Shown here piece after piece: positions 51,987-58,581 of a DNA stretch of 64,000 nt. Both the position numbers and the translations under genes were made by a program. The notes under the pieces were generated by a model, which was not told the origin of the DNA, did not search any database, and was given only the letters and a program-made list of their open reading frames with translations. Positions within the stretch are counted from its first letter, which is position 1; each line of letters starts with the position of its first letter. This DNA is from Methanolobus sediminis (lineage in GTDB: Archaea > Halobacteriota > Methanosarcinia > Methanosarcinales > Methanosarcinaceae), in the NCBI RefSeq assembly GCF_031312595.1, contig NZ_CP133592.1:1116001-1180000 (forward strand). The letters run 5' to 3'.

Positions 51987-53093
51987 TCATTCATCTTCGA
52001 GTTTTTTAAGACCATCAATCACTGCATCATATTTGCTGCATATACGTTCTATAAGGTCGCCTTCCATGCCTCTGTGCGTGGGTATCAAAATGTCAGCACC
52101 CTCTGAAACTTCAACACCCTCACTTGATTGTCCATAGTCAGGAGCGATTACAATTCCAGTCGATGAAACACCAAGGCGCAAATCACTGACGATGCGCGCA
52201 ACCATCTCTGTGGCAGGCCGGACTTTCTTGCTGATTACAAGGGCCCTAGAAACATAACGTTCTTTGAGTTCATTTATAGATTCAATACTTGAACTTGCGG
52301 TATCTTCATCCCAGACATTCTCAAGCAGCTTAATGGAATCTATAAGATCATCAAATGTAGTTGAGCTGACCTCGATTATCTCTCCGTCATAGTACTTACT
52401 GACCCTCTCAAGATAGCCTTTTGAAATAACAAGCTTGTAAACGTCCTCAAGCTCGTCCAGTTCTTCTTCAGTCGGGTCATAAGCATTGATAACTTTGTAT
52501 TCCTTTATGCCACAAAGCTGCATCAGGGACTCATACATTGGAGTGACCCCGATGAACCTTCTTCCAAGCCATTTATTAAGACCACTCTGTCCGCTCTGGA
52601 CGCGGGATAGTTCAATGATCTTCTTTTTTACAAGTTCAGGGTCGTTGGACTCCAGACCAAAATAATCGGCAAACAAAGAAGTAGTCTGCAGAATCTTAGT
52701 CCTGCCGTGAGGAAGTGCTTCGACAAATCCGCGTTCTTTCAATTCCCTGATATGATCGTAAGCAGAGTTACCCCTCATATCAACAAGGTCAGACTGGACA
52801 AGTGGCTGGTGATATGCAATCATGGAAAGTGTGCGAAGCATCGGTGCACTCAGTTCCTTTGGAGCCAGAGGTCTTACATCATCAGTATATTTGGGCTTGA
52901 CCTGCATAACGTAACGTTCGCCAAGGTCCAGAACCTCAAGGCCGGTTTCACGCTCCGAATATTCCTTCACAAGCTCAAGAGCAACAGGAATAGCCTTTGT
53001 TTTGTTTTTGCCGATCAGCCTGCCCAGAGTTGTAGCGTCAAGTGCGCCTCCGGCAGCAAAAAGAGCTGCTTCGATAACTTCCTTATCACTCAT
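51987..53093 (-). CDS. scpB: Chromosome segregation protein ScpB with a long C-terminal extension
   Basis: A 368-residue protein. Residues 1 to about 190 match ScpB, the winged-helix kleisin-associated partner of ScpA-SMC: IEAALFAAGGALDATTLGRLIG, ELSAPMLRTLSMIAYHQPLVQSDLVDMRG, HIRELKERGFVEALPHGRTKILQTT. The rest (about 190-368), including DPTEEELDELEDVY and GVSSTGIVIAPDYGQSS, is an extra domain I do not recognise; usual ScpB is about 170-230 residues. Last gene of the smc-scpA-scpB operon, 15 bases after scpA. The long tail may be an SMC-complex adaptor. Confidence 0.9.
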   Translation of the reverse strand: MSDKEVIEAALFAAGGALDATTLGRLIGKNKTKAIPVALELVKEYSERETGLEVLDLGERYVMQVKPKYTDDVRPLAPKELSAPMLRTLSMIAYHQPLVQSDLVDMRGNSAYDHIRELKERGFVEALPHGRTKILQTTSLFADYFGLESNDPELVKKKIIELSRVQSGQSGLNKWLGRRFIGVTPMYESLMQLCGIKEYKVINAYDPTEEELDELEDVYKLVISKGYLERVSKYYDGEIIEVSSTTFDDLIDSIKLLENVWDEDTASSSIESINELKERYVSRALVISKKVRPATEMVARIVSDLRLGVSSTGIVIAPDYGQSSEGVEVSEGADILIPTHRGMEGDLIERICSKYDAVIDGLKKLEDE

Positions 53094-53108: not shown

Positions 53109-53960
53109 TCACGCAGCCTCAGTTACATTTACAATATCGCAAGCCTCATTGCATGGATACACATACAATTCACCGAAAAGTTCCTTCTGGGCAAGCCAGA
53201 CTTTCTTTTCGGTTGCAAGGAACAATAATGAAACATAGGTCATGATATTCTCAGACCTGTCATCGGTCATAAGATCAGAAAGGATGACAAATTCGCAGTC
53301 TTCAAAGGATTTCTCCAGCATTGCACCCATGTCCCTTACACGCCCAAGAATGTCCTCTTCATGTGCAATTCCAAGGACTTCATCTGTGGTTACAACTGCC
53401 CTTTCTTCAATCCTGCGGTGGACACTGCGGTCTTTCCTGCGGGTTTCCACCTTCTCAGCCTTGCGCAGTTCAACGATAAGCTCCTGAAGTGTGACCGGAC
53501 GGGTCGCCCTGCGCCTGATTGGTAATTTTGGAACAGGATATTCATCCACTTCATAGAAATCCAGCTCAGCATCAAACATGTCAAAGCAGTCATCTTCCTC
53601 TTCTTCCTGAACGATTCCCGTTGATTTCATTCGCAGGAGTATCGCTGCATAAAGGAGAGTTCTGCCTGAAATACGTAGATCAAGCATCTGCATGACCTCG
53701 ATGCGCTCAAGGAACATGTCGGTGACATTTACAATATCAATTTCCCAGGGATTGATAGCGCCATCCTTTGCAAGGTTCATAAGAATCTCAACAGGTTCGC
53801 TGAGGACATCTTCCGGAAATTCCAGAAGGGCTTCATCAACACCCAGACCCCTCAAAGTCTCAACGAACTCAGGGTCAATGGTGCATGGTAACGAAACATC
53901 AGCTATCTGGGCAATGTCGACTGCCTGAACCATTTCCATATCTTCTGCTATTTCGTTCAA
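53109..53960 (-). CDS. scpA: Chromosome segregation kleisin ScpA
   Basis: A 283-residue kleisin that bridges the SMC head and neck. The N-terminal helical domain starts around LEFPEDVLSEPVEILMNLAKDGAINPWEIDIVNVTDMFLERIE, and the C-terminal winged helix (from about SLLFLATEKKVWLAQKELFGELYVYP) is present. An N-terminal extension of roughly 30 residues precedes the core. The start overlaps the smc stop by four bases (ATGA), so the stoichiometry is translationally linked. Confidence 0.93.
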   Translation of the reverse strand: MNEIAEDMEMVQAVDIAQIADVSLPCTIDPEFVETLRGLGVDEALLEFPEDVLSEPVEILMNLAKDGAINPWEIDIVNVTDMFLERIEVMQMLDLRISGRTLLYAAILLRMKSTGIVQEEEEDDCFDMFDAELDFYEVDEYPVPKLPIRRRATRPVTLQELIVELRKAEKVETRRKDRSVHRRIEERAVVTTDEVLGIAHEEDILGRVRDMGAMLEKSFEDCEFVILSDLMTDDRSENIMTYVSLLFLATEKKVWLAQKELFGELYVYPCNEACDIVNVTEAA

Positions 53961-57506: not shown

Positions 57507-58460
57507 TTATTTTCGTCGTGTGGTAGTCATTATTACCGCATCTTCAGATTCACGCGCCTCTATGGAGTCGTAATCAGAATCTTCATTATTATGGATATTA
57601 TCATTGCGTGAAGCTGGCTTGTCCTCTTCAGCAACGATATAACTGCAGGAGTCTCTTTCCTGGCGTGATGTCCTGTTGATTCTCATCTGGCGTTCATCAT
57701 CGGTTTCTGCAATAATATATTCAGATCTTGGTTCAGGTTCTGGCATTTCGGGACGCTTCACAGAAGGAACTTCTCTCACATTAAAACGCATATTTGATGG
57801 TTGAGAGGTTGCTGTTTGTCTGGAAATTGATTCTGGTTCTGCGGACCTGATGGAAACCTTTGGATTTGACTGGCTTGCATAAGATGCGGGTTCTTTAGGA
57901 ACTGAGGGGTTTGACGGAGGAAACATCGATGAAGGTGATACACTCTTAAGTTGGGAAGTACTGGCTGAAGCTGAAACAGGTTTTGGTTCCGGCCTGTAAA
58001 CTCTGGGACTTGAGTATTCAACAGGTGCTGCCTCTGAAACTGGCTTTTCAACCTTAGGTGCAGGATTAGGTGTTAAATTAGGTGTTAGATTTGATGAAAG
58101 ATCTGGTGTGGCTTTTGGCTCAACTTTCCTTTCTTTTGAAACTGAAACCTCTTTCAGTGACCTGATCATTGATTTCTGATCAAGAAGCTCATCCATTATC
58201 CCGTTAAGATTACTGCTTATGGACTGGACCTTACGTTCAAGCTGAGCAATGCGATTATTAAAATCAAGGTCGTTCTTGAGATCACTTCTGATCTCACGGA
58301 GTATAGACTCTCGGAGATTGGTTTTAATATCGTCTAGTTCTGCTTCTTTTTCCTTGAGCTGCCGCTCAAGGCGTTCAATGACAAAGTCCCTGTTTTCAGT
58401 GTTCATGAAAAGCCTCGCAAATCCATTCAGTCCCTCATCGCGGTTACGCGAAAATACCAC
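57507..58460 (-). CDS. Unknown coiled-coil protein heading the smc-scpA-scpB operon
   Basis: A 317-residue protein not recognised. Residues about 23-110 are a charged coiled coil (RDFVIERLERQLKEKEAELDDIK, RIAQLERKVQSISSNLNGIMDEL). Residues 115-240 are a Pro/Ser-rich, probably disordered linker. Near the end a short element recurs: EYIIAETDDE and SYIVAEEDK, about 30 residues apart. There is no signal or membrane segment. It lies 25 bases upstream of smc on the same strand, so it is probably co-expressed. Its architecture, coil plus tethered repeats, would suit a bridging or loading partner of SMC; that is inference. Confidence 0.7.
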   Translation of the reverse strand: MVFSRNRDEGLNGFARLFMNTENRDFVIERLERQLKEKEAELDDIKTNLRESILREIRSDLKNDLDFNNRIAQLERKVQSISSNLNGIMDELLDQKSMIRSLKEVSVSKERKVEPKATPDLSSNLTPNLTPNPAPKVEKPVSEAAPVEYSSPRVYRPEPKPVSASASTSQLKSVSPSSMFPPSNPSVPKEPASYASQSNPKVSIRSAEPESISRQTATSQPSNMRFNVREVPSVKRPEMPEPEPRSEYIIAETDDERQMRINRTSRQERDSCSYIVAEEDKPASRNDNIHNNEDSDYDSIEARESEDAVIMTTTRRK

Positions 58461-58581
58461 GTTAATATATGAATAAAAGTATAATATACCTTATGGTTGT
58501 CTCTTGTATTTTATTCAAGCAATAAATAATTATTTAATTTGATTGGCGTTTCACCGGTTTCACCCAGCTTTATCGGCCAGT

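Follow-up and report, generated by a model that had tools for sequence, protein, structure and literature searches.

Identification of the ORF preceding smc

Which protein is encoded directly before smc in Methanolobus sediminis, and does it belong with the Smc complex? Little is known of what archaeal SMC proteins do physiologically (PMC9764264), and archaeal Smc complexes appear to do without the kite subunit that bacterial Smc-ScpAB requires (PMC7055376). In the window (the whole 64,000-nucleotide stretch of contig NZ_CP133592.1 that was analyzed), the minus strand carries, in order, mre11, rad50, the open reading frame (ORF) at 57507-58460, smc, scpA, and scpB. This order confirms the position given in the initial annotation, which placed the ORF at the head of smc-scpA-scpB. 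The features of the locus are as follows:

62723-61242, minus strand: mre11, upstream of rad50
61245-58582, minus strand: rad50, directly 5' of the ORF
58461-58496, minus strand: AT-rich promoter-like block GGTATATTATACTTTTAT, directly 5' of the ORF and kept throughout the genus
57507-58406, minus strand: DUF7518-like smc-linked protein with the start revised to ATG19, 299 aa
53957-57481, minus strand: smc (TIGR02169, 1330 bits), beginning 25 nt past the ORF stop
53109-53960, minus strand: scpA (PF02616), overlapping smc by 4 nt
51987-53093, minus strand: scpB, a long form of 368 aa (PF04079 and TIGR00281)

The spacing from rad50 to the annotated GTG start (58460) is ~120 nt, and the AT-rich block directly upstream is consistent with a transcription unit headed by the ORF. 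A scan with a sigma-70-type promoter model, which does not cover archaeal promoters, gave no excess over chance. Two neighboring products have extensions of their own. ScpB continues for ~200 residues past the ScpB domain, and long ScpB frames were likewise seen in other Methanosarcinaceae and in family-level group f6. The tail of Mre11 is long, acidic, and probably disordered; it ends in QYNLGDYL, which resembles a possible C-terminal docking peptide.

Start codon and leader

Comparison with relatives suggests that the annotated GTG is wrong and that the true start is probably the ATG at 58406 (M19). The DNA 5' of M19 is retained in relatives but is interrupted by in-frame stops or by indels that break the frame, M19 is invariant across the family alignment with the protein conserved from MNTENRD on, and a GAGG ribosome-binding site lies ~7 nt 5' of ATG19; the GTG start is therefore probably wrong. 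The revision leaves the argument on the DUF7518-like protein unaffected.

The conserved leader also holds a mini-ORF, ATGGATTTGCGAGGCTTTTCATGA (MDLRGFS-stop; 58403-58426, minus strand), which is preceded by its own GAGG and whose stop codon overlaps the ATG of the DUF7518-like gene. Substitutions seen in relatives (TTG to CTG or TTA) leave the mini-ORF peptide unchanged, but in one genus (L036, L071, L072) the frame is interrupted by a stop. It is possibly a translational-coupling leader.

A coiled coil, a disordered linker, and conserved peptide islands

AlphaFold2, run on the single sequence, predicted one long helix at residues 21 to 108 (pLDDT ~80-95) and disorder past ~residue 110 (mostly pLDDT <60; mean pLDDT 59), in agreement with the N-terminal coiled coil and long disordered linker described in the initial annotation. 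The parts of the protein are listed below, with pN/pS values from a comparison of twelve congeneric sequences:

58137-58400, minus strand: N-terminal coiled coil, residues 21-108 (AlphaFold2 helix; pN/pS 0.12)
57798-58124, minus strand: disordered linker, residues 113-221 (pLDDT ~40-50; pN/pS 0.56)
57768-57785, minus strand: FNVREV element, residues 226-231, conserved in Methanosarcinaceae (pN/pS 0.11 for residues 222-235)
57699-57719, minus strand: peptide motif copy 1, YIIAETD, residues 248-254 (pN/pS 0.047)
57621-57641, minus strand: peptide motif copy 2, YIVAEED, residues 274-280 (pN/pS 0.108)
57510-57587, minus strand: C-terminal block, first acidic and then basic, with DAVIMTTTRRK at its end, residues 292-317, restricted to Methanosarcinaceae (pN/pS 0.30)

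The coil exhibited a heptad-like periodicity of 3.5 residues (P = 0.03 in the window protein and 0.0005 to 0.04 in six homologues), and Pro, Ser, Thr, Ala, Gln, Asn, and Gly make up 63% of the linker (residues 113-221). The two YI[IV]AE copies are under strong purifying selection and are among the slowest-evolving stretches of the protein. Judged by this pattern of substitution, they would fit the usual signature of docking peptides, namely, conserved islands within a fast-evolving disordered chain. A search against solved structures returned only cGMP-kinase coiled coils and was uninformative; matches to NCBIfam LegC3 and to Pfam families of the SKA1/Spc24 type were taken as generic coiled-coil similarity.

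Membership in the DUF7518 family

From profile and alignment comparisons, the window protein is classed as a divergent member of Pfam DUF7518 (PF24362), a family whose function is unassigned. The protein had been called unknown in the initial annotation, which holds for its function but not for its name. Its own PF24362 score, 20.7 bits, is under the curated cutoff of 27, with the core match at residues 70-116 (E value of 7e-4). However, an unbroken chain of homology leads from it to above-cutoff members that likewise stand before smc: two proteins of its own family (L059, L060), with ~40% identity to it, score ~40 to 42 bits, and 27 of 39 aligned family members match DUF7518 at an E value of ≤0.01. 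The window protein and DUF7518 share the core coil +V..LE..V.EL...V.GLT.ELLD.K as well as the position 5' of smc. DUF7518 is strongest in haloarchaea, and the window protein differs from most haloarchaeal members in being ~3 times as long and in having two internal motif copies rather than a single terminal one. The C-terminal motif, [DE][YILM]I[IVY][ACV], was found in this analysis and is not part of the Pfam definition.

The gene is linked to smc across Halobacteriota

The protein was found in 55 of the 60 relatives searched, the weakest of the 55 being counted without individual verification. Above-cutoff PF24362 matches occurred in 41 of 148 Halobacteriota genomes, and the linkage was obligate, all 41 lying directly upstream of smc. 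Adjacency was established by alignment for 30 fetched loci, in every one of which smc begins just 3' on the same strand, and from coordinates for the remaining 11. The divergent members that were recognized were likewise immediately 5' of smc. With smc located in 121 of the 148 genomes and 119 of these loci read (two were unread), a hand count of the upstream gene gave a recognizable member at ~99 of the 119, from haloarchaea to Archaeoglobi, a figure that includes divergent forms, among them four f14 forms in which the N-terminal box is kept and the motif is missing. The gene occupies this position in, among others, Haloferax gibbonsii, Haladaptatus, Natribaculum, Halomicroarcula, Methanoculleus chikugoensis, a Methanosarcina species, two Archaeoglobales, and a Methanoperedenaceae genome. 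The initial annotation had proposed looking for homologues in the same position, and they were thus present beside smc across the phylum, so a function linked to SMC is well supported. Such gene linkage indicates co-function, not contact.

The four f14 genes (L079, L080, L081, L083) encode the box MEGD.K.IVL.RLE..LK.KD at the N terminus, have a weak coil match, and lack IIVA; the proteins end in RFFH or SFFK plus ~five residues, possibly a substitute docking peptide.

Seven family-level groups (f6, f11, f12, f17, f20, f21, and f22) lack the gene next to smc, and a whole-genome profile search of genomes without the gene in that position gave no convincing copy elsewhere, with a profile that is not exhaustive, as it misses the two short f15 members adjoining smc. 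Methanothrix lacks the gene. A search of 23 genomes from archaeal groups outside Halobacteriota also failed to find the family; these included Thermococci, Thermoplasmatota, Methanocaldococcus, Asgard archaea, Bathyarchaeota, Thaumarchaeota, and DPANN; smc was present in 22 of the 23. One weak Bathyarchaeota match (E value of 0.0075) was on a different contig from smc. Since at least seven Halobacteriota groups and the outgroup archaea keep smc without the gene, the Smc complex can work without it. In one of the groups lacking the gene, f20 (L093, L096), ScpA was not recognized near smc, in contrast to the other families examined.

Rad50/Mre11 was considered as the partner and rejected. Adjacency to rad50 is restricted to Methanosarcinaceae-type loci and is not general, leaving smc as the durable partner. 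The same observation bears on the reading that the gene is only an operon leader with a function unrelated to SMC, such as translation coupling or mre11-rad50 repair, and is held in place by shared regulation. The gene does come after mre11-rad50 in Methanosarcinaceae, and its short leader has a conserved mini-ORF and a ribosome-binding site, as this reading would have it. However, smc is the constant neighbor while Rad50 is a neighbor only in Methanosarcinaceae-type loci, and shared regulation alone seldom preserves a gene pair throughout a phylum without a functional link. We regard this reading as highly improbable.

A short peptide motif is conserved throughout the phylum

The repeated YI[IV]AE element reported in the initial annotation proved to be real and to be one form of a phylum-wide motif, [DE]-[Y/I/L/M]-I-[V/I/Y]-[A/C/V]-[D/E or end], present in one to three copies. 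Methanosarcinaceae have two copies, with three in one genus. Haloarchaeal proteins have a C-terminal DDIIVA or SDIIVA, and Archaeoglobi have a C-terminal DDIIVCD, DEIIVVD, or similar; neither of these forms was used in the initial annotation. The Methanomicrobiales-type form is SEYIVAS, often with a second DLIVAEDEE or DLIYAVEE, and the form in f7 is TTYIIAD plus NDIIIADRE. Of 43 diverse homologues, 41 had the motif in the tail, whereas shuffled tails gave a mean of 0.58 and a maximum of 6; the excess is partly circular since the pattern was derived from those same sequences. Its deep conservation is matched within the genus by the low pN/pS values given above. In Methanomicrobiales-type members (L061, L123, L132, and others), a second conserved block, (L/M)IMQ.DGT(L/M)K.E.R, was seen just ahead of the YIVAS motif.

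At the DNA level, the DIIVA-stop pattern gave exactly one match in 14 of the 16 haloarchaeal genomes scanned, every time within the DUF7518 gene, and the reversed control pattern gave none. With matches confined to that gene, the terminal tag appears to be private to it rather than a general hub signal. In the source genome, there were two extra motif matches, of which only one is protein coding, in the middle of a domain in a signal-peptide-peptidase-like protein (judged by eye to be SppA-like); the other is in a frame of 32 codons.

Proposed role of the protein

Taken together, the position and anatomy of the protein suggest a dedicated accessory of Smc-ScpA in Halobacteriota, a coiled-coil stalk with peptide tags for docking on the complex; we give this reading an even chance of being correct. 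In the proposed mechanism, the N-terminal coiled coil would self-associate to form the stalk, and the flexible linker would display one to three copies of the acidic-hydrophobic peptide. The peptide would then bind the Smc-ScpA core, either as an added beta strand or in a groove, with ScpA a likelier docking partner than SMC. One oligomer with repeated tags would attach multivalently and could cluster complexes or tether them to whatever the stalk binds.

The linkage and anatomy would equally serve an arrangement of opposite polarity, with SMC or ScpA bound by the coil and the peptide left free to recruit a separate chromosomal factor (origin, replication, or transcription machinery), which would make the protein a loader or positioning anchor. 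Loader and anchor, along with processivity factor, are candidate roles that the initial annotation had put forward. The coil has a pN/pS of 0.12, so that its constraint is about equal to that of the second motif, and some domain boundaries disappear in Haloferax when smc is mutated (PMC9764264), so that a positioning factor could exist. However, the C-terminal form of the motif was found in no other haloarchaeal protein, no candidate for the recruited factor emerged, and no DNA-binding domain that could confer site specificity was seen among the family-profile matches. We consider this arrangement a tentative possibility and rather unlikely.

The docking partner: ScpB, ScpA, or SMC

For the accessory whose tags would dock on the complex, the initial annotation had proposed the extra domain of ScpB as the target of the YIxAE repeats. 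This is contradicted by the retention of the motif in haloarchaea and Methanomicrobiales-type genomes with no detectable ScpB and by published pull-downs, in which archaeal ScpA and ScpB did not bind in any of the six pairs tested (PMC7055376). PF04079 was not detected in the haloarchaeal families or in f8, f16, f19, f25, and f27, all of which carry the gene, and haloarchaea are described as being without scpB (PMC7055376). With ScpB missing from many motif-bearing families, it is very unlikely to be the target. A partner of the tag must co-occur with it; ScpB fails on this point, and SMC and ScpA remain.

In families without the gene, there was an excess of altered conserved ScpA columns (P of ~0.01 versus random family sets, a value that depends on few independent losses and is uncorrected for phylogeny), and the same comparison gave no excess change in SMC columns (P of ~0.1). 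The altered columns include K145, E169, and K170, within or just past the ScpA middle region. This weak signal may point toward ScpA and is to be taken as a lead rather than a result.

The location of these columns would also suit a protein that replaces the kite (ScpB) by binding the shortened middle region of ScpA and shaping or gating the ring. Also in keeping with such a replacement are the failure of archaeal ScpA to bind putative ScpB in six pairs, the absence of scpB from haloarchaea (PMC7055376), and the presence of the gene in families that lack ScpB. However, the AlphaFold2 prediction is of coil and disorder, with no kite or winged-helix fold, and the gene co-occurs with ScpB in Methanosarcinaceae and Archaeoglobi. 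Moreover, kite-less archaea outside the phylum are without the gene, the Methanococcales (PMC7055376) being sampled by one Methanocaldococcus genome. A kite replacement is therefore improbable in our judgment.

An extended form of the favored accessory reading would make the protein a third component of the Halobacteriota Smc-ScpA complex, neither kite nor hawk, in which an oligomeric stalk with multivalent tags clamps or clusters rings; we view this form as doubtful at present, although conceivable.

Significance

The literature searched, outside subscription papers, contained no mention of DUF7518, and the genes flanking Haloferax smc were not mentioned there by locus tag, only HVO_0689 itself. 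The smc linkage throughout Halobacteriota thus appears to be undescribed in the literature searched, as does the putative docking motif that the proteins share. The DUF7518 family offers a specific candidate for an Smc partner that has been overlooked, being beside smc in haloarchaea, Archaeoglobi, and methanogens and having a conserved five-residue motif. On the sequence evidence, the helical stalk and short, sticky peptide tags of the protein make it a strong contender for a helper missing from the archaeal machinery that folds chromosomes. A direct test is possible in Haloferax volcanii, in which smc (HVO_0689) can already be deleted and chromosome contact maps exist; the test is simple in haloarchaea since the final five codons make up the key site.

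Comparison with known systems

Bacterial ParB-type loaders place SMC on the chromosome, and SMC placement is a role that the DUF7518-like protein may share with them, although family-profile searches gave no match to a ParB/CTPase or DNA-binding domain in the window protein. ScpB and other kite subunits are likewise small partners encoded in the smc operon. However, kites are built of winged-helix domains in tandem and bind the kleisin, whereas the window protein consists of a coil and a disordered tail, had no PF04079 or winged-helix match in the family-profile searches, and is accompanied by a separate scpB in its operon. At the level of the peptide, DDIIV resembles the SUMO-interacting motifs of eukaryotes, which have a short hydrophobic run with acidic flanks; the Ala or Cys past the core and the C-terminal placement are specific to the DUF7518 family. 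In gene arrangement, there is a likeness to RdfA of haloarchaea, likewise a dedicated partner fixed beside a gene of the SMC superfamily, with 42 of 54 RdfA genes adjoining an SMC-like gene (PMC10869688). The neighbor of RdfA is the gene for the SMC-like Sph, not canonical smc, and RdfA has been described in cell-shape control (PMC10869688), whereas the durable neighbor of the DUF7518-like gene is smc itself.
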